Assembly (NCBI RefSeq): GCF_009689585.1
Contig: NZ_AP018694.1
Location: 4,951,501 to 5,015,500 of the forward strand
Length of the DNA stretch: 64,000 bases
DNA from: Aquipluma nitroreducens
GTDB taxonomy: Bacteria > Bacteroidota > Bacteroidia > Bacteroidales > Prolixibacteraceae
Direction: 5' to 3'
Below the pieces are notes generated by a model, which ran no database searches, had not been told where the DNA came from, and saw only the letters and a program-made list of their open reading frames with translations. Positions 43,466-64,000 of this stretch are shown piece after piece. Position numbers and translations under genes: made by a program. Position 1 is the first letter of the stretch. Every line of letters begins with the position of its first letter.

Positions 43466-44545
43466 TCATTTGACAACTCCCGGAACATATTCCACTTTGT
43501 TTTTGAGTACATAATACATTCGGTTCAATACTTTTCTTGCAATTCTGACAATCGCTTTGTTTGGGTCCATTCTCTTGATATAACTATGATAGCTCATCGT
43601 CAGGGCAGGATCAAACCTTGCGGCAAACCAGGAACTCTCAATTAATGATCTTCTGAGAGTATTATGTCCCCGAAACGTCATTTCCCCGTTATTGGCTTTT
43701 TCCCCGGAAGAGTGATAATTGGGAACCAGTCCTACAAACCCGGCAAAATGATCAGTGTTTTCAAACCGTTCAATATTTTCGATCTCTGTCAAGAACGTGA
43801 TGGCAGTTATTAGCCCAATTCCAGGTATAGTTCGCAGCAAAGCGATATTTCCAGCATATCTTTCACTGCGCGACAATAACCTGATCTCTCTAAGCACTTC
43901 CAGCAATAGTTTCCGTTGTTGTTCGGCCTCTTGCACCAATATTTTTAACGCCTGTGTCCCGGATCCGTGTTGCAATGAAACTTCACCGAGCCATTTCATA
44001 AATCTCTTTGACCAATGGGACCCAGATTTTTCAAATTCCGGTGGATAATCGATTCCATAGAAGTACAGAAACGATTTAATCCGTTGCTTGAACCGAACCA
44101 TGTCTTTGACCAAAGTTGCCCGCATACGAACCAAGGACCTGTCTTCCAACGTTGATGAACTTGGAATGTATATAGACTTTAAATCACCTGAACGTAATGA
44201 CCGTGCTAGTTTTCGGCTGTCAGTCGGGTCATCTTTCTGCAATTGCTCCTTCTGTGAGGTCGGAACATCTGCCGGGTTGATAACGACATTGTTTATTCCC
44301 ATTTCCTTTAACCTGTAATGAGTCCAAAAACCACTAAAACCAGCTTCATATACCGAATTGTAATTGCCACCGGGAAAATTACGCTTCAGGTAGTTGCACA
44401 ATATTACTGCACTGGCAGGCTGGGTAAATGTTTTATGTAACAGCTCTTCTGTTAAAATTGTCACTGTCCAGCTTTTCAGGTGAACATCAATCCCGACAAA
44501 AAAATTTTGTCCTTTAAAATCTAATTCCGTCTTTTGTGTTTGCAT
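43466..44545 (-). CDS. IS110-family transposase (DEDD recombinase)
   Basis: 359 residues. The N-terminal RuvC-like DEDD domain has Asp in FVGIDVHLKSWTV, Glu in VYEAGFSGFW and Asp residues in KDDPTDSRKLAR. The middle is helical. The C-terminal Transposase_20 domain (LLRTIPGIGLITAITFLTEI, FAGFVGLVPNYHSSGE) precedes the serine-containing segment RRSLIESSWFAARFDP. It is complete by length and motifs. IS110 elements lack terminal inverted repeats, so exact ends cannot be set from one copy. The noncoding flank is where a bridge RNA would be encoded. Confidence 0.92.
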   Translation of the reverse strand: MQTQKTELDFKGQNFFVGIDVHLKSWTVTILTEELLHKTFTQPASAVILCNYLKRNFPGGNYNSVYEAGFSGFWTHYRLKEMGINNVVINPADVPTSQKEQLQKDDPTDSRKLARSLRSGDLKSIYIPSSSTLEDRSLVRMRATLVKDMVRFKQRIKSFLYFYGIDYPPEFEKSGSHWSKRFMKWLGEVSLQHGSGTQALKILVQEAEQQRKLLLEVLREIRLLSRSERYAGNIALLRTIPGIGLITAITFLTEIENIERFENTDHFAGFVGLVPNYHSSGEKANNGEMTFRGHNTLRRSLIESSWFAARFDPALTMSYHSYIKRMDPNKAIVRIARKVLNRMYYVLKNKVEYVPGVVK

Positions 44546-53096: not shown

Positions 53097-53960
53097 TTAT
53101 TTAAAGGCTATTAATTTTCCTTCAGCAACCAATTTCTGAATAATGTCAGCTTCTGCTTTATCTGCAATTAACCTGGAAATCAAAAGAGCTTCTTCCCTGA
53201 AATCTACCGATTCATTGTCGAAAGAATTGTTAGCTTCAACTGGAGCAACAAATCCTCTTTCCATCACTCTCTGAATGGCTTTAGCTTCTTCCTTGTCTGC
53301 AATTGATTTAGTTATCAAAAGAGCTTCTTTACCGAAGTCGGTTGTTTCAGTACTGTTTTCATTTTCGAACGAATTGTTTGTTTCAACTGGAGCAACATAT
53401 CCTCTTTCTATCACTCTCTGAATGGCTTTAGCTTCTTCCTTGTCAGCAATTGATATAGTTATTAAAAGAGCTTCTTTACCGAAGTCGGTTGTTTCAGTGT
53501 TGCTTTCATTTTCGAACGAATTGTTTGTTTCAACTGGAGCAACATATCCTCTTTCCATCACTCTCTGAATAGCTTTAGCTTCTTCCTTGTCAGCAATTGA
53601 TATAGTTATTAAAAGAGCTTCTTTAGCGAAGTCGGTTGTTTCAGTGTTGCTCTCATTTTCGAATGAATTGTTTGTTTCGCTTGGTGCAACAAATCCCAAT
53701 TCAATCACTTTTTTGTTCGTCTTTGCTTCTGCCATGTCGGCAATCCATTCAGTAACCAATAAAGCTTCTTTTCCATAGTCAACAGTTCCGTTTTGTTCAC
53801 TTTCGAACAAAGCAATTTTTTCATTCAAAACGGCAAAATTTTCGTTTGCATTGATCAATCCAGAATTTTTTACTTCGAAATTTACTGCTGAGTTAGCATT
53901 TAATACTCCGGTAAATACAAGTGCGCTAACTGTAATTAAGGTTCTAATTTGTGTTTTCAT
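53097..53960 (-). CDS. Secreted protein with five 49-residue repeats
   Basis: 287 residues. A Sec signal (TLITVSALVFTGVLNANSA) has no lipobox. From about residue 60, five units follow. The consensus is DFGKEALLITISIADKEEAK, then AIQRVMERGYVAPVETNNSF and ENESNTETT. Units 2 and 3 differ at only a few residues; the outer units are more diverged. Each unit is a likely amphipathic helix pair plus an Asn/Thr/Glu-rich linker. The near-identical 147-bp DNA units imply recent expansion and possible length variation by slippage. No known domain is recognised. Isolated gene; function unknown. Confidence 0.8.
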   Translation of the reverse strand: MKTQIRTLITVSALVFTGVLNANSAVNFEVKNSGLINANENFAVLNEKIALFESEQNGTVDYGKEALLVTEWIADMAEAKTNKKVIELGFVAPSETNNSFENESNTETTDFAKEALLITISIADKEEAKAIQRVMERGYVAPVETNNSFENESNTETTDFGKEALLITISIADKEEAKAIQRVIERGYVAPVETNNSFENENSTETTDFGKEALLITKSIADKEEAKAIQRVMERGFVAPVEANNSFDNESVDFREEALLISRLIADKAEADIIQKLVAEGKLIAFK

Positions 53961-56252: not shown

Positions 56253-56840
56253 TTAACAACCTCCGCCAGATGTGGCTTCTTTACGAACAGTAATTACCAC
56301 CTGAGGTTTCTTTTTCTCGGGTTGAGCTACTTTTATTTCCTGTTTTGCCTTCATGGTCGCGGTATCCAGCAACATGACTTCAGTAGCAGGTAAAGCGGGT
56401 TTCATTAATTCATTGGTTGCAACATATCCCCCTTCTAAAGTTTTCAGGTTGGTGTAGCCCATCTGTTGTAAAAGTAAACAGGGTGCAATGGTTTGCAATT
56501 CATCACTTCCATAGAGAACTGCCGTTTGCCCGTTTTTTTTAAGTCGGTTAAACAGTTCGAGCGATTCTTCGTCGAGTAGGTTTCGAACTGGAATATTAAT
56601 GGCATTCTCGGCATGGCCTTGTGCGAATAATTCTGTTGTACGGATATCGATGAGTTGCGCACCTGCCAAATCCGAGATTGTCACCTGGTTCTGCTGATCA
56701 ACCATCATTTTCATCGCTTGATCTGTTCCGGTTTGATATTCAGGCAACTTTGGCCTAAATAAAAATGCCAGAAACACGATAACGATTGCAAGTCCAAGCA
56801 GACTTAACCAGATTTTATTCGATTTAATGAATGGATTCAT
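56253..56840 (-). CDS. Membrane-anchored, catalytic-Cys-less rhodanese protein with SGGGC tail (1)
   Basis: 195 residues: N-terminal anchor (LSLLGLAIVIVFLAFLF, about 12-28), periplasmic rhodanese domain (about 50-150; IDIRTTELFAQGHAENAINI). The usual active-site Cys after the VxY strand is replaced: AVLYGSDELQTIAPC. The C-terminal tail KKPQVVITVRKEATSGGGC ends in a lone cysteine on a glycine hinge. Such an arm recalls SoxY (GGCGG) or DsrC sulfur carriers. It is the last gene of the Psr/YedE operon, 55 bp after the homologous gene. A sulfane-sulfur carrier role is my inference. Confidence 0.8.
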   Translation of the reverse strand: MNPFIKSNKIWLSLLGLAIVIVFLAFLFRPKLPEYQTGTDQAMKMMVDQQNQVTISDLAGAQLIDIRTTELFAQGHAENAINIPVRNLLDEESLELFNRLKKNGQTAVLYGSDELQTIAPCLLLQQMGYTNLKTLEGGYVATNELMKPALPATEVMLLDTATMKAKQEIKVAQPEKKKPQVVITVRKEATSGGGC

Positions 56841-56894
56841 TGGTACTTTTTTAGATTTTACTTTTGCCTTTTTACTTTTGCTCTTTGCCTTATT

Positions 56895-57518
56895 TTAGCA
56901 ACCGCCTCCCGATTTGGCTTCCGGCGCTTTTCTGATGACTTTGACTTTTACAGGAGCTTTCGCCGCAACCGGAGTTTCTGATGTTTGTCCGGCTCCGGTA
57001 AAATATTGGCGGGCAGCATTTCTGAAACTCATCAGGTCAAGGTCAGCCGACGATGCCGTTGAAGAAACCTCGCCGGGTTTGATGATCGTATTGTACCATT
57101 CGTTCAAACCACCTTTCAGGATATATAACCGATTGATTGAATAGCGTGTGCCAAGTAGCCAGGCTTTTTCAGCCATCAGATCAGAGTTGGAATACAATAT
57201 TTTATCTTTCCCGGGTTGGTTAAGCAATTCGAGAGTGGTGGCCGAAAGCAGCGAATCGGGTTGAATGTTGATTGCCCCGGGCAAGGCGAATGCTTTAAAC
57301 TCATTAGCCGGACGAAGATCGATGAGCAACAATGTCGGATCGTTTTCGATGATTCGGTGAGTAACCAAATCAACCGAAAGGTACCTCGACTTTTCGGTAA
57401 TTGCCGACAATAAAGCTTTCGGATCGGTTTCTTTTAAATCTTTTTTTTTCGGCAGAACAACCAGTCCCAAGGCCAAAACAATCAGAAGAACAGCAAGTAT
57501 GGTGTATTTTCTTTCCAT
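56895..57518 (-). CDS. Membrane-anchored, catalytic-Cys-less rhodanese protein with SGGGC tail (2)
   Basis: 207 residues: anchor helix (ILAVLLIVLALGLVVLP, residues about 7-23), rhodanese fold (LLLIDLRPANEFKAFALPGA; GGLNEWYN) with Ser where the catalytic Cys should be (KILYSNSDLMAEKAW). A longer linker follows, then a tail VKVKVIRKAPEAKSGGGC almost the same as that of the next gene. The duplicated design, the same missing Cys and the same C-terminal Cys argue for a functional tail and not decay. It lies 14 bp after the YedE gene in the operon. Probably faces the periplasm. Confidence 0.8.
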   Translation of the reverse strand: MERKYTILAVLLIVLALGLVVLPKKKDLKETDPKALLSAITEKSRYLSVDLVTHRIIENDPTLLLIDLRPANEFKAFALPGAINIQPDSLLSATTLELLNQPGKDKILYSNSDLMAEKAWLLGTRYSINRLYILKGGLNEWYNTIIKPGEVSSTASSADLDLMSFRNAARQYFTGAGQTSETPVAAKAPVKVKVIRKAPEAKSGGGC

Positions 57519-57532
57519 GATTTTTCAGGGGA

Positions 57533-58126
57533 TTAATATTCTACTTTTTTAACTTTCTTCTGAACCCATGCTGCTCCGAAGAACATGCCCACGGCTGCCA
57601 AAACAAGAAAGAACGTAAACAGTTCGGGTGAAATTCCGAAGACTGAATTAATCATTTTTGCGCCTTGCGAGCCGCTGTAATACATGTTTTCGAATATTGG
57701 AAATGATTCAGAAAACAGAAACACGCCAAGGAACATCCCACCGAAAAATACAAGTCCGTCGAGTCGGCCAACTGCTGCTGCACACAAACTGGTTCCGGGG
57801 CAAAAACCACCCATCGAGAATCCAATTCCCATGATAATTCCGCCAACAATAGCCGAAGTTAAAAAGGTTGGCTGAATGTAGAGCAATGTGTAATCGACAA
57901 GGCCGAAGTAGCTTAGGTAAAGTAAACCCATTGAAGCTACAATGGCCGCGGTAAAGAACACCTTTACAACCACAAAGTCGTAGCCGAAAAATGTGCCTAT
58001 AATTTTGCGGGATGAAGAAAATCCTGAAGATTCGAGCGCAAAGCCAAAACCCATACCGATTAATACGGCAAATATATTGTCCCATGCCTGGGATACAATT
58101 CCTGATGAAATGATTGGTCCGATCAT
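57533..58126 (-). CDS. YeeE/YedE family sulfur transporter subunit (1)
   Basis: 197 residues with about five membrane helices (Sulf_transp family). Characteristic segments are FAVLIGMGFGFALESSGF, MGIGFSMGGFCPGTSLCAAA (cysteines in the half-repeat signature, about residue 108-118) and GRLDGLVFFGGMFLGV. Family members import thiosulfate or sulfane sulfur by passing it along cysteines. Full-length YeeE has about 350 residues and two halves; here two half-size genes are encoded in tandem, so they probably form a heterodimer. It lies 18 bp from its partner. Together they may move sulfur across the inner membrane. Confidence 0.85.
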   Translation of the reverse strand: MIGPIISSGIVSQAWDNIFAVLIGMGFGFALESSGFSSSRKIIGTFFGYDFVVVKVFFTAAIVASMGLLYLSYFGLVDYTLLYIQPTFLTSAIVGGIIMGIGFSMGGFCPGTSLCAAAVGRLDGLVFFGGMFLGVFLFSESFPIFENMYYSGSQGAKMINSVFGISPELFTFFLVLAAVGMFFGAAWVQKKVKKVEY

Positions 58127-58144: not shown

Positions 58145-58672
58145 TTAAATCCAGTTTTTACGGAGAATCCATGCCACAACAAAGGCAGTTCCGAAAATAG
58201 CAACCATGGTGATGTAACCTCCGAACGATAAAACAGCCATTCCGCTTAACGCTGCCCCACTGGTACATCCTCGGGCAAGTTGCGCGCCAAATCCAAAAAC
58301 GAGTCCTCCCCCCAACGCAAACCAAAGTCGGCGACGCGAGGTGATTTTAGGCGAATGTTCAACTTTCATTTTCAGGCGATTAAAAACAATTCCCGAAATA
58401 AAAGCCCCTGCTAAGACTCCAAGTACTTCATAAATTAGCCAGTTGTTCATCGGTCTATTGTCGCCACCGGCAAACTGACTGTAATATGCCGATTTTTCAA
58501 CATGTTGCGGTGCAACTGCATTTACCGTTGCAGCAACCGTATTTTTTACGGCTCCACTGGCTCCAACTCCACGGCCCGAAATGTAAAACGAAAGTAAAAG
58601 AACAGTTCCAAGTATCACTCCACCCAAATAAGGATTGAGGTAGAATGATCCGTCGTTTTTTATCTTCTTCAT
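58145..58672 (-). CDS. YeeE/YedE family sulfur transporter subunit (2)
   Basis: 175 residues. The N-terminal helix (LGGVILGTVLLLSFYISGRG) precedes a periplasmic loop. Helices then include LRLARGCTSGAALSG-type sequence (QLARGCTSGAALSGMAVLSF), where the Cys sits in the conserved family signature. It is the other half of the pair with the gene at 57533; the two align as inverted-repeat halves of one YeeE. It follows NrfD by 60 bp in the sulfur operon. Substrate (thiosulfate or polysulfide sulfur) is inferred. Confidence 0.84.
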   Translation of the reverse strand: MKKIKNDGSFYLNPYLGGVILGTVLLLSFYISGRGVGASGAVKNTVAATVNAVAPQHVEKSAYYSQFAGGDNRPMNNWLIYEVLGVLAGAFISGIVFNRLKMKVEHSPKITSRRRLWFALGGGLVFGFGAQLARGCTSGAALSGMAVLSFGGYITMVAIFGTAFVVAWILRKNWI

Positions 58673-58732: not shown

Positions 58733-59674
58733 TCAGTATAAATATCTTGTAATTTGGCCAGCTTCAACCATCAGAAACCTGAAGATCAATCCTCCTATAA
58801 GAATTAGCACAGCAGGTACAGCAATTGGTACTTTATAGCCTTTCAGTTCAAAAACTTCAAGTACAGCAGGGAATATCAGGCCAAGAATTACAACGAATGC
58901 AAAGAATGGAGCTGTGAATTTTCCTCCCAGGAATAGGTTTGCAGCATTAATCTGGACTTCTGACCCTGCCAGAAAGCCCATGAATAAATGGATAATAAAG
59001 AACAGTTCTACGATAATCAGTAGAATGTCAATTCTTCCCATAATCTTTCGCTCTTTGTGATCTTTACTCATTAGCATGATGACAGCCGCGGCAGTTGACA
59101 TTCCGGAGACCAAAAACAGTGGCCCGAGAATCGATGTATTCCATAAGGGACGGGCATTGAAAGCTGACAATAGTATTCCAGTATAAATACCAAGAATGAT
59201 AGCATAAATAGCCATTGGCCACGCAATGATTTTTCTGTTTTTAATTAACCAGGCTTCTATTGTATTCAGAATCTTGAATTTCCAATCCCAATTTGGAAAT
59301 GCCTCTTTAACGTAACTGGCTGACCAAAGAATAGAGATTGGTGTGATGATCATTAAAACCCATGAACCCCAGCCCATTGGCGATTCCAAACGAATGGTCG
59401 TGTAAAGTTGCCAGAAGTAAAGTTTGTGTTTCAAGTCAAGAAACAGAAAGAAAAGTCCTAGCATCAATATAAAAGGAACGAGTAATGGTGCTTTCTTGAC
59501 TGTGGCTTCCATTTTGTTTTCCTTGCCCATGATGGTGAAAAAGCTGGCAAAGAATAGGATTCCGGCTGCCAAACCACCCAGAAACAGGTAGCCTGGAATC
59601 TGCCAGTGCCATATATTTAGATAAGGATCTATATTTGGAATGTTGCGTCCGCTTGCGAATAATTCTTCTTTCAT
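58733..59674 (-). CDS. NrfD/PsrC-type polysulfide-reductase membrane subunit
   Basis: 313 residues with eight to nine helices of the NrfD family. It starts with WHWQIPGYLFLGGLAAGILF (conserved quinol-site region), then WQLYTTIRLESPMGWGSWVL, RPLWNTSILGPLFLVSGMST and GGKFTAPFFAFVVILGLIFP. It exchanges electrons with menaquinone on behalf of the FeS and Mo subunits. It is transcribed after the FeS subunit; the 158-bp gap between them contains paired ACCACATAG repeats, which may be a processing or transcriptional boundary. Confidence 0.88.
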   Translation of the reverse strand: MKEELFASGRNIPNIDPYLNIWHWQIPGYLFLGGLAAGILFFASFFTIMGKENKMEATVKKAPLLVPFILMLGLFFLFLDLKHKLYFWQLYTTIRLESPMGWGSWVLMIITPISILWSASYVKEAFPNWDWKFKILNTIEAWLIKNRKIIAWPMAIYAIILGIYTGILLSAFNARPLWNTSILGPLFLVSGMSTAAAVIMLMSKDHKERKIMGRIDILLIIVELFFIIHLFMGFLAGSEVQINAANLFLGGKFTAPFFAFVVILGLIFPAVLEVFELKGYKVPIAVPAVLILIGGLIFRFLMVEAGQITRYLY

Positions 59675-59832: not shown

Positions 59833-60366
59833 TTATACCAGATAAAATATCTGTGGTTTGGTACCTGCTTCAGGAGCCAGTGATTTGAATTTACGGTTCT
59901 TCAGCACGTTTACAATTTTCGAATTTGGATCGTCGAGGTCGCCAAAATTCATGCAACTGGTTGGGCAAACACTCACACAGGCAGGATTTTTCCCTTCACG
60001 AACCCGGTGAATGCAAAAAGTGCATTTGTCAACGTATCCATCCGGATGCGAGTAGCGCGCATCGTACGGGCAGGCTTGGATGCAGGCTCCGCAGCCGATG
60101 CACTTGTCGTGATCAACCAAAACAATTCCGCCATCTTCGAAATGACTTGCTCCGGTTGGGCAGCATCGAACACATGGAGAATTGTCACAATGATTGCAAC
60201 GTTCGGTGCGAAGTTCGATGCTTACATTCGGGTAAGTTCCGTCAACAACTTCAACCACCCAATCGCGGCAGAAACCTACCGGTACATTGTTTTCGGTCTG
60301 ACAGGCTACCACGCAATCGCTGCAGCCTACACATTTCCGGGTATCAATAGCCATTGCATATCTCAT
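59833..60366 (-). CDS. Four-cluster ferredoxin subunit (PsrB/NrfC/PhsB-like)
   Basis: 177 residues with four 4Fe-4S cysteine sets: CVGCSDCVVAC, CNHCDNSPCVRCC, CIGCGACIQACP and CTFCIHRVREGKNPAC with a final CPTSC. It is the electron-transfer subunit between the Mo enzyme and NrfD. Its start overlaps the stop of the catalytic-subunit gene by 4 bp (ATGA), so the two are translationally coupled. It carries no Tat signal; it likely hitchhikes with the catalytic subunit. Confidence 0.92.
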   Translation of the reverse strand: MRYAMAIDTRKCVGCSDCVVACQTENNVPVGFCRDWVVEVVDGTYPNVSIELRTERCNHCDNSPCVRCCPTGASHFEDGGIVLVDHDKCIGCGACIQACPYDARYSHPDGYVDKCTFCIHRVREGKNPACVSVCPTSCMNFGDLDDPNSKIVNVLKNRKFKSLAPEAGTKPQIFYLV

Positions 60367-62603
60367 AGTTTAGCCTCCTTTTTAGGTTCGTCTTTCAAAA
60401 ATGTGACGAAATTTCCACGCATTCCGGTTCCGCCCATGATTGGGTCAATCGCCACATCGGTTATTAATTCAGTATCGTTTACACCACGTCCAAATGCATA
60501 CGTCAGCGGTTTATGATGGTGTCCAAAGCCATGTACAATGTACACTGAATCCCATCGGATGCGCTCTGTAACCCTCACTTTAACTGAAAAATTGGAAACT
60601 ACGCCATCCTGATTTTTCAACCAAACATACTGGTCTTTTTTCAGTCCCCACAATTCAGCAACCTGAGGATTTACCCAGACTGCATTTTCGGGCATCAGCG
60701 CTACCAGATTTCGGTTATTGGCCGTACGACTGAAAGTGTGCATCGGTGCACGTCCGTATATCAGACGGTAAAAGCCTTCCTCTGGTTGGGCATGAGCCGT
60801 AAATTTTGGCATTGAATCGAATCCTGCTTCTTCCAGTTCCTTTGAAAATAATTGTATTTTTCCTGAAGCGGTCTTGAATTTATGATCAGAATCAGGTAAA
60901 ATGTAAGCTGGAGTTTTTCGAGCATATTTTTTCACCCCGATACGCTCCATTTCTTCGAGCGACAGACCCAGTTGTTTCAATTGCCAGTCAATTACTTCTT
61001 TGAAATCGGTAAAGTTAAAATAAGCCCCAAGTCCAAGGCGTTCGCCGATTTGTTTGGCAATCCACCAGGCTGGTTTTGATTCGTACATCGGTTCAACCGC
61101 CGGCATTCGCAGCACAAGCGTTGGTTCGCGGTGTGGTGTGGCGCGCAGATCGTCATACCGTTCAAGGTAAGTACATTCAGGCAAAACCACATCGGCATAT
61201 CCAGTAATTTCCATTGGCATGGTATCAACCACCACCAGTAATTCGAGCGATTGCATGGCTTTCATCAATTGCTCTTTCAGCGGTATCGAAACGATGAGGT
61301 TTGTTCCTGAAACTATCCAGCCTTTTATCGGATGAGTATTTCCTTCCGCAGGAATAGATGCTTCTATTATTGTATTTGTAATTGATTCTTTAGCTAACGG
61401 ATATCTTCCGTTAAGAGTGTCTTGCCACGACCAGCTAGGTTTTGGATAGGCCGGGTGCGGAAAATCAGGAACTTTAATACCTTCTTTGAAGAAAATTCCT
61501 CCGCGGTTTCCCCACGATCCCAGCAAGGCGTTCAGGATTGCAATTGCCCGCGAACGTTGAACATCGTCGCCGTACCAACTGGTGTGGCGTCCGGGGTGTA
61601 TTATTGTAGCTGGCGCAGCGTTGGCCATTTCACGGGCAGTATTGCGGATAACTTCAGGTTTAATGGTTGTAATTCCATACGCCCATTCCGGAGTGAAACT
61701 TCGAACATGTTCTTTCAGTTCGTTGAAACCTTCAGCATATTTGGCTACATATTCTTTATTGTAAAGATCGTTATAGATGAGTACGTGAATCCACGATAGC
61801 AAGAGAGCCAGATCGGTCGATGGTTTAATAGGTAACCAGTATTTCGATTTACTTGCGGCTGTTGATAAGCGTGGATCGACAGTTATGATGGTAGCTCCTT
61901 TGTCGATGGCTTCCGACATTTCCTGAACCTGCCCGTTGTGCATGTTCTCGCCGATGTGTGATCCGATCAGCACGAGACATCGAGTATCGCGGATGTCAGT
62001 TACTTCCGGACTGCTCACCGATTCACCGAAAGTGAGTTCGAAACCCGTATCGCGAGGACCACGGCATTGAGCAAACGAAGGGGCTGTTACGTTATTTGAG
62101 CCATAAGCATTGAGCAATTGTGTAAAATATTTGCCTGAACTTCCGTGGTTGAATAGCGCCATGCTTTCCGGGCCATCTTTCTCAGCAATTTCCTTCATTT
62201 TTTTAGCGATGAAATCAAACGCTTCTTCCCAACTTGCTTCACGATAGGTTTGTTCCCCATTTTTGGTAATACGAATCAGGGGCGTTTTTAAACGATCAGG
62301 ATCCGAAAACATTCCGACACCGCCTGTTCCGCGTGGGCAAAGACGACCGTTACATTGCGGATCGTCAGCATTTCCTGTAATTTTCTGAATTTGGCCTTCG
62401 GTTGTAACATGTGCCCATCCGGCACATTTCCAGAAACAAACTTCACAATAGGTGGAAACCTTTTTCAATATGGGAGCCGATTTTAATCCTCCTGAAAGTT
62501 TTTTTGAAGAAGATCCTACGGCCCAATTCATTGTGCCACCTGCAATTGCAGTAGCGCCTAACCCTAATGAACCAATTTTTATAAAATTCCTCCGCGTATG
62601 CAT
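60363..62603 (-). CDS. Molybdopterin oxidoreductase, thiosulfate/polysulfide reductase-like (PhsA/PsrA)
   Basis: 746 residues: Tat signal (HTRRNFIKIGSLGLGATAIA), then a 4Fe-4S site (CEVCFWKC...GRLCPRG, about residues 50-95), molybdopterin domains (FNHGSSGKYFTQLLNAYGS, APSFAQCRGPRDTGFE with a Cys as the likely Mo ligand, IVSGTNLIVSIPL) and the C-terminal dinucleotide-binding domain (RLIYGRAPMHTFSRTANN, WVNPQVAELWGLKKDQYV). It should reduce thiosulfate, polysulfide or a related oxyanion in the periplasm. Other family substrates (arsenate, tetrathionate) are possible. It is the first gene of the seven-gene operon, 70 bp after a canonical promoter. Confidence 0.87.
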   Translation of the reverse strand: MHTRRNFIKIGSLGLGATAIAGGTMNWAVGSSSKKLSGGLKSAPILKKVSTYCEVCFWKCAGWAHVTTEGQIQKITGNADDPQCNGRLCPRGTGGVGMFSDPDRLKTPLIRITKNGEQTYREASWEEAFDFIAKKMKEIAEKDGPESMALFNHGSSGKYFTQLLNAYGSNNVTAPSFAQCRGPRDTGFELTFGESVSSPEVTDIRDTRCLVLIGSHIGENMHNGQVQEMSEAIDKGATIITVDPRLSTAASKSKYWLPIKPSTDLALLLSWIHVLIYNDLYNKEYVAKYAEGFNELKEHVRSFTPEWAYGITTIKPEVIRNTAREMANAAPATIIHPGRHTSWYGDDVQRSRAIAILNALLGSWGNRGGIFFKEGIKVPDFPHPAYPKPSWSWQDTLNGRYPLAKESITNTIIEASIPAEGNTHPIKGWIVSGTNLIVSIPLKEQLMKAMQSLELLVVVDTMPMEITGYADVVLPECTYLERYDDLRATPHREPTLVLRMPAVEPMYESKPAWWIAKQIGERLGLGAYFNFTDFKEVIDWQLKQLGLSLEEMERIGVKKYARKTPAYILPDSDHKFKTASGKIQLFSKELEEAGFDSMPKFTAHAQPEEGFYRLIYGRAPMHTFSRTANNRNLVALMPENAVWVNPQVAELWGLKKDQYVWLKNQDGVVSNFSVKVRVTERIRWDSVYIVHGFGHHHKPLTYAFGRGVNDTELITDVAIDPIMGGTGMRGNFVTFLKDEPKKEAKL

Positions 62604-62703: not shown

Positions 62704-62909
62704 TGACTTTTACTCTAAATATATAGATAATTGCAGGTATTCTATTAATTATCAGATTATCAGATAGATATGTGGTATTTAATTGTCTCATATAATTTTA
62801 TGAGGTCAGTCATGTAGAAAACTGATCTAACGCAGTTTTTGAAAATAAAATGGATAAGCTTGGTTCAGTTATAAAAGTTGTAGATTTGAATCGCTGAATG
62901 TTATTTATA

Positions 62910-63338
62910 ATGGGAATACAAAAACCGATATCGCGAAATACATTTTTTCGAGTTATGTCAGGCTTGATTTTGGGGCTGTTTGGCTGGATTTGGTATCGGC
63001 TTTCAGGCTTTCAAATTGAACATGAGAACCGAATGGAGTACCGGCACGGTCTGGATTTGCCGATGGGATTGAGCTATTACGAAAAATATTACCTGTTCAG
63101 GAGCGATCAATCGGTAAGGGCTTTCTTGACTAAATGTACCCATGCCGGATGCCGCATCGGTTTGGGAACAGAAACAACTTTGCAATGCAATTGCCATGGT
63201 TCCCAATTTGATGCTAAAACCGGAAATCCACTGAAAGGCCCTGCCATTAAACCACTTCAGGAAATTGAATGCCGGTATGATGAAAAGAATGGTCAATGGG
63301 TGGTGAGGATGAAAGAAAAATCAGTAAAAACCACATAG
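62910..63338 (+). CDS. Rieske [2Fe-2S] protein
   Basis: 142 residues from ATG 62910 (12 bp shorter than the first ATG). The N-terminal hydrophobic anchor (FFRVMSGLILGLFGWIWYRL) is followed by a Rieske domain. CTHAGC (near 76-81) and CNCHGSQF (near 97-104) supply two Cys and two His. It is small, as in quinol-oxidising Rieske/cytochrome b complexes. It is transcribed away from the sulfur operon and 48 bp before cytochrome b, so probably forms a cytochrome bc-type complex with it. The electron acceptor is unknown. Confidence 0.9.
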   Translation: MGIQKPISRNTFFRVMSGLILGLFGWIWYRLSGFQIEHENRMEYRHGLDLPMGLSYYEKYYLFRSDQSVRAFLTKCTHAGCRIGLGTETTLQCNCHGSQFDAKTGNPLKGPAIKPLQEIECRYDEKNGQWVVRMKEKSVKTT

Positions 63339-63386: not shown

Positions 63387-64000
63387 ATGATGCGCCTACA
63401 AAAAGTAAAGAAGTTTCTACAATTTGATACGGCAGGATGGATCGCCAGTTCATCGCTGCTGATCTGTGCCGTTAGTGGAATTTTACTGGCCATTCCTTAC
63501 GATTTTACACATGCGCATCAGTCTGTTTCTGAACTGCTTTTATACAATCCCGCCGGATCGCTGGTTCGTAACCTGCATTACTGGAGTGCACAGTTGTTTT
63601 TTATTTTTTCGGTTATCCATGTGTACGACCACATGTCAAAATCTACAGAAACCAATGTTCGAAATCGTCGTACCTGGCTGATTCTATGCCTTGCGCTGGG
63701 TTTTATGGGTTACGAAATGATTTCGGGCTTTATCCTGAAAGGCGATGCTGCGGGGATTCAGGCACAGCGAATTTTAGCTTCGTTGCTCGAATCGGTGCCT
63801 TTTTTCGGGAAACTTTTGAGTTCAGCTTTTACCGGGGTGGGTGAAAATAGTCAGGTTGTTTACATCCAGCATGTGGCTACCGGAACTATTTTGTTATTTA
63901 TCGCCGTTTACGATCATGTAAAAACCATTTGGCCAAAGCGCAAATCCTGGCTTATTGTTTTTTCGATTATTCTGATTCTCAGCGTGCCGTTTCGGGCACC
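63387..64000 (+). CDS. Cytochrome b N-terminal domain protein (partial, cut by window end)
   Basis: An open frame from ATG 63387 (or 63390) runs off the window after 204 codons. It reads MMRLQKVKKFLQFDTAGW, then a first helix ending ILLAIPYDF, and LHYWSAQLFFIFSVIHVYDH with two His spaced as haem ligands. A later YIQHVATGTILLFIAVYDH holds the second His pair. The helices match the N-terminal half of cytochrome b/b6. It follows the Rieske gene by 48 bp and probably encodes its partner. The C-terminal part lies outside the window. Confidence 0.85.
   Translation, partial: MMRLQKVKKFLQFDTAGWIASSSLLICAVSGILLAIPYDFTHAHQSVSELLLYNPAGSLVRNLHYWSAQLFFIFSVIHVYDHMSKSTETNVRNRRTWLILCLALGFMGYEMISGFILKGDAAGIQAQRILASLLESVPFFGKLLSSAFTGVGENSQVVYIQHVATGTILLFIAVYDHVKTIWPKRKSWLIVFSIILILSVPFRA

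Follow-up and report, generated by a model that had tools for sequence, protein, structure and literature searches.

The Sud protein of Wolinella succinogenes is a rhodanese-fold polysulfide-sulfurtransferase that acts in polysulfide respiration through the Cys of its rhodanese loop. SoxY presents a GGCGG motif on its C-terminal arm (PMC6067878), described elsewhere as a swinging arm (PMC11237559), and the DsrC account in PMC3397948 portrays a flexible C-terminal arm whose reactive penultimate Cys carries sulfur in concert with cytoplasmic sulfurtransferases. PmpA and PmpB are described as complementary YeeE halves in PMC11582611, where a transfer from the SoxY Cys is called only conceivable for SoxT, and YeeD is placed at the cytoplasmic side of YeeE (PMC11073785). 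YeeE-type channels are known, yet the donor of sulfur on their outer face is open. Here, we analyze a 64,000-nucleotide stretch of the Aquipluma nitroreducens genome (contig NZ_AP018694.1, positions 4,951,501–5,015,500 of the forward strand; hereafter, the window), in which neighboring genes encode RhA and RhB, two membrane-anchored rhodanese-fold proteins that lack the catalytic Cys and share a C-terminal tail ending in Cys.

Judged by the comparisons below, such tailed rhodaneses appear to be sulfur carriers of a kind not described before. No description of rhodanese tails of this sort was found in the open-access full-text literature, among the matches listed, most subscription journals being outside that coverage.

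A conserved C-terminal Cys on rhodaneses without the catalytic Cys

RhA and RhB occupy the following positions in the window:

56895..57518, minus strand: RhA, membrane-anchored rhodanese-fold protein, 207 residues, Ser110 at the catalytic position, ending in SGGGC
57189..57191, minus strand: RhA Ser110 codon, the position of the catalytic Cys in rhodaneses
56898..56906, minus strand: RhA tail codons for GGC (Gly205-Gly206-Cys207), invariant in 26 of 26 aligned rows
56253..56840, minus strand: RhB, second membrane-anchored rhodanese-fold protein, 195 residues, Gly111 at the catalytic position, ending in SGGGC
56256..56264, minus strand: RhB tail codons for GGC (Gly193-Gly194-Cys195), invariant in 19 of 19 aligned rows

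Both proteins match the Pfam Rhodanese family (PF00581; cut-off 22.2 bits), RhA with 47.9 bits (E-value 2e-12) and RhB with 47 bits (E-value 3.8e-12). The residue found in place of the catalytic Cys is Ser110 in RhA (KILYSNSD) and Gly111 in RhB (AVLYGSDE), so neither qualifies as an active rhodanese sulfurtransferase, nor as a Sud-type protein with a rhodanese-loop Cys. Each begins with a hydrophobic stretch, seen as helix 3–21 in an AlphaFold2 model of RhA and judged from the sequence in RhB, and each closes with SGGGC directly before the stop codon. Cys207 is the only Cys of RhA; RhB has two, Cys121 and Cys195. A first-pass annotation of this DNA, made from the letters alone, had described two membrane-anchored rhodaneses with a replaced catalytic Cys and a common SGGGC tail, and the profile matches and alignments bear it out on both counts.

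The RhA model, computed from a 26-row alignment, has a mean predicted local distance difference test score (pLDDT) of 85.6 and consists of the N-terminal helix, a confident rhodanese core, and an extra helix (res. 157–174). A Foldseek search of the PDB with this model retrieves rhodanese structures (best E-value 3.6e-7). Beyond helix 157–174 the model is of low confidence, with pLDDT below 50 at residues 178–189 and 204–207, and neither the alignment nor the model of RhA contains a C-terminal hydrophobic helix. The ~30 residues ahead of the terminal GGC are a predicted disordered arm, usually Lys-rich.

RhA was matched in 101 of 149 relatives searched at an E-value of 0.001, some of the matches being other rhodaneses. 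In the 26-row RhA alignment, whose other 25 members are 28–72% identical to the window protein, the invariant residues are D67, R69, W120, G137, N139, W141, R166, and the terminal G205, G206, and C207. Columns 178–203, just ahead of this triplet, are unconserved, no residue occurring in more than 20 of 26 rows and most in fewer than 14. The 19-row RhB alignment is invariant at D65, R67, G128, and G193-G194-C195. These rows were hand-chosen from the fetched homologues, and those of RhB picked among tailed ones, which makes wider counts the fairer test. Across the window and 149 loci, 244 of 3870 open reading frames (ORFs) of at least 80 residues end in GGC or GGCx, and all 244 match the RhA/RhB profiles. 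Because the loci partly overlap, later counts refer to distinct sequences, 271 of which have a complete 3′ end. Among them are 208 single-domain proteins (<260 residues) ending in GGC(x), with the catalytic position readable in 207: Ser 88, Gly 84, Ala 24, Cys 5, His 3, and one each of Thr, Tyr, and Asp, so that the catalytic Cys is missing in 202. Another 15 single-domain proteins have an EGC or DGC end. Lipobox Cys aside, 115 of 223 tailed single-domain proteins contain no Cys other than that of the tail. The loci of two culturable relatives, Draconibacterium mangrovi and Maribellus maritimus, each encode two tailed proteins. This conservation rules out the tail as a chance feature or a local oddity.

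A separate observation concerns the RhB gene of one relative at L039:8035-8631 (on the same contig as L019 and L143), which carries a TGA in frame at precisely the catalytic position and then continues as an intact frame to SGGGC. Selenocysteine at this site was considered and set aside, since the near relative L145 has Gly there; a nonsense change or an assembly error is probably the simpler explanation.

At the scale of the phylum, a profile search with RhA finds matches in 276 of 395 Bacteroidota genomes at 1e-6, many of them ordinary rhodaneses. From the listed places we examined 69 loci (L211–L279) with 73 profile-matching ORFs and scored those of at least 130 residues and at least 56 bits (n = 63). 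A terminal or penultimate Cys is present in 62 of the 63, and 60 of those 62 are without the catalytic Cys; the endings are GGC in 31, EGC in 18, GGC plus one residue in 7, MGC in 4, and DGC and FQC in one each. The lone scored ORF without a terminal Cys is an apparently truncated frame of 134 residues. Below 56 bits, three of six ORFs end in Cys (two in SGGLCS, one the second gene of a pair) and three do not. Four ORFs shorter than 130 residues had been dropped before the count; none is tailed; the aligned position holds Cys in three, and in the fourth a Cys lies adjacent to it. On these sequences, tailed Cys-less proteins separate sharply, though not perfectly, from ordinary rhodaneses. Members of the family with a normal active Cys and no tail, which the first-pass annotation had named as grounds for abandoning its idea, were looked for in the loci and the phylum sample and did not occur; nor did loss of conservation of the terminal Cys.

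The family also extends to Gemmatimonadota, an occurrence based on one plasmid record. A tblastn search of plasmids revealed a homologue in Gemmatirosa kalamazoonensis with Ser at the catalytic position and an RRRGC end, preceded directly by PmpB-like and PmpA-like ORFs; this 12.4-kb locus gave no match to the molybdopterin (Mo), iron–sulfur (FeS), or NrfD queries at 1e-3.

Within the 5.7-Mb window genome, we scanned for C-terminal GGC or GGCx ahead of TAA and TGA stops and obtained 52 matches (28 GGC and 24 GGCx). Only four of them close a frame of 100 codons or more, each encoding a split-YeeE-linked rhodanese: RhA, RhB, a PmpB–rhodanese fusion (2.7075 Mb), and a paralogue of RhA (4.6546 Mb) adjoined by YeeE halves of its own. 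Three further matches terminate a 68-codon and a 55-codon frame, both counted from ATG, and a frame that has no ATG. These figures rule out GGC as a motif found generally at C-termini in this genome.

A strongly hydrophobic N-terminal stretch is found in 219 of the 223 tailed proteins. Five tailed single-domain proteins have lipobox-like starts, as do, by eye, several tandem ones. Summed over the 223 proteins, net charge is +365 before the anchor helix versus +72 after it; the plain count of Lys plus Arg is not higher before the helix (478) than after (563). The lipobox-like starts, the net charge around the anchor helix, and the twin-arginine-like start of the Mo subunit encoded upstream would together place the domain outside the cytoplasm.

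Linkage to a split YeeE channel and an operon-shared tail peptide

RhA and RhB are the last of seven genes running on the minus strand from 62603 to 56253. The other genes of this operon, and two divergent genes beyond it, are:

57533..58126, minus strand: PmpB-like half of a split YeeE channel, Sulf_transp positions 13–157; fused to a rhodanese in paralogous systems
58145..58672, minus strand: PmpA-like half of the split YeeE channel, Sulf_transp positions 177–309; single Cys136
58733..59674, minus strand: NrfD/PsrC-type membrane quinone subunit
59833..60366, minus strand: PsrB-type ferredoxin subunit
60363..62603, minus strand: PsrA/PhsA-type molybdopterin subunit with a twin-arginine-like start, RRNFIK
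62898..63338, plus strand: Rieske protein, oriented divergently to the Psr operon, with Rieske matches in 40 of the 105 distinct loci, window included
63387..63998, plus strand: cytochrome b/b6-type protein, divergent and running off the window; match in 38 of 105 distinct loci, window included

The Mo subunit aligns over residues 4–739 with 2vpw_A, a thiosulfate reductase in the PDB list (E-value 7.5e-200), giving full-length homology to the catalytic subunit of PsrABC/PhsABC; its score against the PhsA model of NCBIfam, 480 bits, is under the cut-off of 694. The two half-length channel proteins match complementary halves of Sulf_transp, as expected of a split YeeE, and the PmpB-like half contains Cys109 and Cys115. 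Together with Cys136 of the PmpA-like half, these are the residues that could correspond to the channel cysteines Cys91 and Cys293 of TsuA. The predicted neighborhood of a Mo reductase, an NrfD protein, and a split YeeE is thus confirmed by profile and 2vpw matches. Farther away in the window lie a 287-residue protein of internal repeats (53097-53960, minus strand), whose BLAST matches among the fetched loci are only L040 and L041 (same contigs as L131 and L132), and an IS110-family transposase (43466-44545, minus strand; Transposase_20 and DEDD_Tnp_IS110).

Gene context was analyzed for tailed loci with 1.5 kb or more of upstream sequence, 105 distinct ones in all (BLAST, 1e-8; 37 short loci excluded); these were fetched by RhA homology and are not a random sample. 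PmpA-like and PmpB-like genes are both present in 104 of the 105, and all 12 aligned PmpB–rhodanese fusions end in GGC, so the YeeE synteny anticipated for GGC-tailed rhodaneses holds and is accompanied by natural fusions. The Mo subunit occurs in 91 of the 105 loci; where the upstream sequence reaches 4.5 kb or more, it is present in 82 of 87. Among other genes, tandem-rhodanese-like ones occur in 16 loci, SQR-like ones in 21, DsrC in 15, and the octaheme cytochrome in 6. Rieske and cytochrome b are both matched in 38 of the 105, position within the locus not considered, a co-occurrence that suggests a functional link. The five of 87 loci without a Mo subunit are L058 and L073, which both have an octaheme cytochrome, and L071, L077, and L078; three more octaheme loci carry this cytochrome and the Mo subunit together.

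Two side observations belong to these loci. In L059, L071, and L077, where the Mo subunit was not found, a short RhB paralogue of 158–171 residues, Cys-less and tail-less, adjoins a tailed RhA and offers a natural control for the role of the tail. In L194, SQR type III, DsrC-like, and DsrE-like proteins are encoded at L194:12202-15006, just downstream of the tailed-rhodanese operon; the SQR scores 652 bits against the selenoprotein-subtype model of NCBIfam.

The fusion in the window genome lies in a second sulfur locus (L073:7555-11571) that encodes an octaheme cytochrome of the tetrathionate-reductase family (576 bits versus a cut-off of 375), cytochrome b561, PmpA, PmpB–rhodanese-GGC, and thioredoxin. 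In 12 tailed genomes searched for the Mo subunit, a PsrA-type match is present in three (54–64% identity, near full length). The other nine have none at 1e-10 (five genomes) or a partial match of at most 37% identity (four genomes), and in seven of the nine (G023, G218, G469, G332, G414, G364, and G390) a channel half is adjacent or fused to the rhodanese. The arm is therefore not tied to Psr alone.

Within operons, the tail acts as a shared module. We compared 35 non-redundant adjacent tailed pairs, drawn from 99 (triplets give two pairs; one partner is a 138-residue short protein and one a fusion). Over the 11 positions that precede GGC, identity is 64% for operon mates and 26% for shuffled partners, and the two members of a pair have the same residue, or none, after Cys in 35 of 35 cases versus a shuffled mean of 21.6; none of 5000 shuffles reaches either value. 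The rhodanese cores (pairs <260 residues) do not covary, with BLOSUM scores of 100.6 within versus 103.1 between operons. Codons at identical tail residues agree in 196 of 351 cases versus 166.5 expected from codon usage, and this small excess indicates that tail likeness is kept mainly at the amino-acid level. Recent gene conversion is accordingly an unlikely source of the shared tails, the excess leaving room for some exchange. As many as three proteins of one operon wear the same peptide, among them tandem rhodaneses whose catalytic Cys is intact. Tandem rhodaneses, which mostly retain the catalytic Cys, carry the tail in 9 of 21 cases; of the 10 that have a tailed carrier at most 0.7 kb away on their own strand, 7 are tailed, mostly with a tail much like the neighbor's.

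A probable swinging-arm carrier and competing explanations

We consider it probable, from these sequence comparisons, that RhA and RhB are extracytoplasmic, membrane-anchored swinging-arm carriers of sulfane sulfur that serve the PmpAB-like channel together with Psr-type or octaheme enzymes. The tail is conserved, the catalytic Cys is lost, the arm is predicted to be disordered, the channel is linked or fused to the rhodanese, and the tail peptide is shared within operons. The rhodanese domain would no longer do chemistry, its role being that of an anchor, a docking surface, and perhaps an anion-binding platform, and the working thiol would be the terminal Cys at the end of the arm. Once exported, this Cys may load sulfane sulfur on the periplasmic side as a persulfide or thiosulfonate, and the arm would then shuttle sulfur between its putative partners, the mouth of the split YeeE on one side and a sulfur enzyme outside the cytoplasm on the other, in most loci a PsrABC-type Mo complex and elsewhere an octaheme cytochrome. 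Where present, the tandem rhodanese lipoprotein with an intact active Cys may load the arms. The direction of transfer could be either; Rieske, cytochrome b, and SQR-like genes would be compatible with oxidation and reduction alike. Of the functional claims in the first-pass annotation, that of the terminal Cys as working thiol survives as a conserved thiol in a large family lacking the catalytic Cys, and that of sulfane-sulfur carriage stays a prediction. Its proposed relay between transporter and reductase fits tails found with a channel and no PsrA-type enzyme and, once, with Psr and apparently no channel; the octaheme loci show that such a relay would not be limited to this reductase.

Several observations weigh against the carrier as drawn here. 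The genome G443 (locus L215) has the gene order FeS-NrfD-RhA-RhB, with RhA directly after NrfD and a PsrA of 64% identity, and its whole assembly (99% complete, 20 contigs) gives no PmpA or PmpB match, though RhB lies at a contig edge and a gap could hide them. Across 84 operons, the partial correlation with RhA-tail similarity is 0.21 for the Mo subunit, 0.12 for PmpB, and 0.03 for PmpA; in the same comparison, the ferredoxin subunit gives 0.03, NrfD −0.07, and the RhA core itself 0.30. The model of a PmpB–rhodanese fusion, with a mean pLDDT of 57, is too poor to show docking. Catalytic and tail Cys are both kept in 5 of 207 tailed single-domain proteins, and also in L241 and L243, and Cys-less, tail-less single-domain members exist (RhB of L064 and the short RhB paralogues of L059, L071, and L077). 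In the phylum sample, the L253 member ends in FQC rather than GC, and L279, a distant 48-bit match, is tail-less with Ser at the aligned catalytic position. Last, the periplasmic side of the RhA/RhB domain is one that we infer from sequence features. Tail covariation may thus speak slightly against the channel as partner, while gene context and fusions favor PmpAB as the docking partner of the tail. The tails and Psr of G443, in an assembly with no channel match, weaken the idea of the channel as sole partner; they slightly raise the likelihood of a carrier serving more than one client and slightly lower that of each of the two single-client explanations discussed next.

A role like that of Sud, in which the arm delivers polysulfide sulfur to a PsrA-type active site and PmpAB is merely co-transcribed to clear or import products, would account for the Mo subunit in 82 of 87 loci with sufficient upstream sequence, for its leading partial correlation among operon partners, for G443, and for the match of the RhA domain profile to Wolinella Sud (1qxn, E-value 1.6e-5). 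We nonetheless find it unlikely, given the five loci of 87 without a Mo subunit, the nine of 12 tailed genomes without a PsrA-type match, the Gemmatirosa locus without Mo, FeS, or NrfD matches, and the use by Sud of its rhodanese-loop Cys. Near-constant PmpB linkage, fusion, and the lost catalytic Cys would also be expected of a pseudo-enzyme that binds thiosulfate or persulfide anions for PmpAB while a tail-Cys disulfide plugs or regulates the channel. This gate is improbable in our view: a tail peptide common to up to three proteins per operon, intact-Cys tandem rhodaneses among them, better fits a shared carrier arm, and G443 retains its tails with no channel match in the assembly.

Explanations outside sulfur transfer fare worse. 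Extreme C-terminal placement of a Cys after a basic stretch also occurs in some sorting signals, and the terminal Cys could form an inter-subunit disulfide or a covalent C-terminal anchor; we hold such a structural or sorting role to be very improbable, because 219 of 223 tailed proteins are already hydrophobic at the N-terminus, there is no C-terminal hydrophobic helix (which by itself led us to reject a C-terminal sorting signal), and every ORF of at least 80 residues ending in GGC(x) in the fetched loci is a rhodanese, beside sulfur genes. Handling of selenite, tellurite, or metals, with the basic tail and Cys binding oxyanions or soft metals, is hinted at by a tandem GGC rhodanese (L194:3717-4616) that scores 65.6 bits, below the cut-off of 200, against ExtH, a rhodanese of selenite/tellurite operons. 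It seems scarcely credible next to neighbors resembling enzymes of sulfur metabolism (PsrA-type, octaheme tetrathionate-reductase family, SQR type III, DsrC, and DsrE).

The swinging-arm carrier can be set in a wider frame, for and against which we see roughly even chances: Bacteroidota, and at least one gemmatimonadote, would have relocated the sulfur-carrying Cys of a rhodanese from its loop to the C-terminus, creating a portable arm. The tail peptide would then be an operon-specific address for shared PmpAB and Psr/octaheme ports, worn by one to three carriers (Cys-less rhodaneses, tandem active rhodanese lipoproteins, and channel–rhodanese fusions), and the whole an independently evolved class of arm beside SoxY and DsrC. 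The finding points to a widespread extracytoplasmic sulfur system in Bacteroidota and, if true, makes the sulfurtransferase label questionable for many proteins without the catalytic Cys. A conserved, channel-fused carrier with a single thiol in about half of its members (115 of 223) also provides a direct experimental handle, with one cysteine to mutate and one peptide to trap.

Comparison with known sulfur carriers

In form, RhA and RhB resemble SoxY, which in the literature cited above is a periplasmic sulfur carrier with its thiol on a glycine-rich C-terminal arm: their GGC likewise sits in a Gly-rich tail, of low model confidence. They differ in that the protein is a membrane-anchored rhodanese fold, the Cys is last or last but one, and they usually go with a split YeeE and, in addition, Psr or an octaheme cytochrome. 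They share with DsrC/TusE a terminal or penultimate Cys on a predicted flexible C-terminal arm, a resemblance in form, not homology. RhA and RhB belong to neither family: a Pfam scan gave no SoxY match up to an E-value of 0.1 and no DsrC (PF04358) match, whereas the DsrC-like gene of L194 does match, and a separate DsrC-like gene accompanies the tailed rhodaneses in 15 of 105 loci.

Sud is the likeness in fold, the RhA profile matching 1qxn over positions 47–144, a match that stops short of the tail; in place of the loop Cys the tailed proteins mostly have Ser, Gly, or Ala. With YeeE/TsuA-YeeD/TsuB, SoxT, and PmpAB, the window operon shares the pairing of a YeeE-type channel with a dedicated Cys protein. 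In contrast to YeeD, however, the partner here is a rhodanese-fold protein that bears its Cys on the tail and is likely to face the periplasm.

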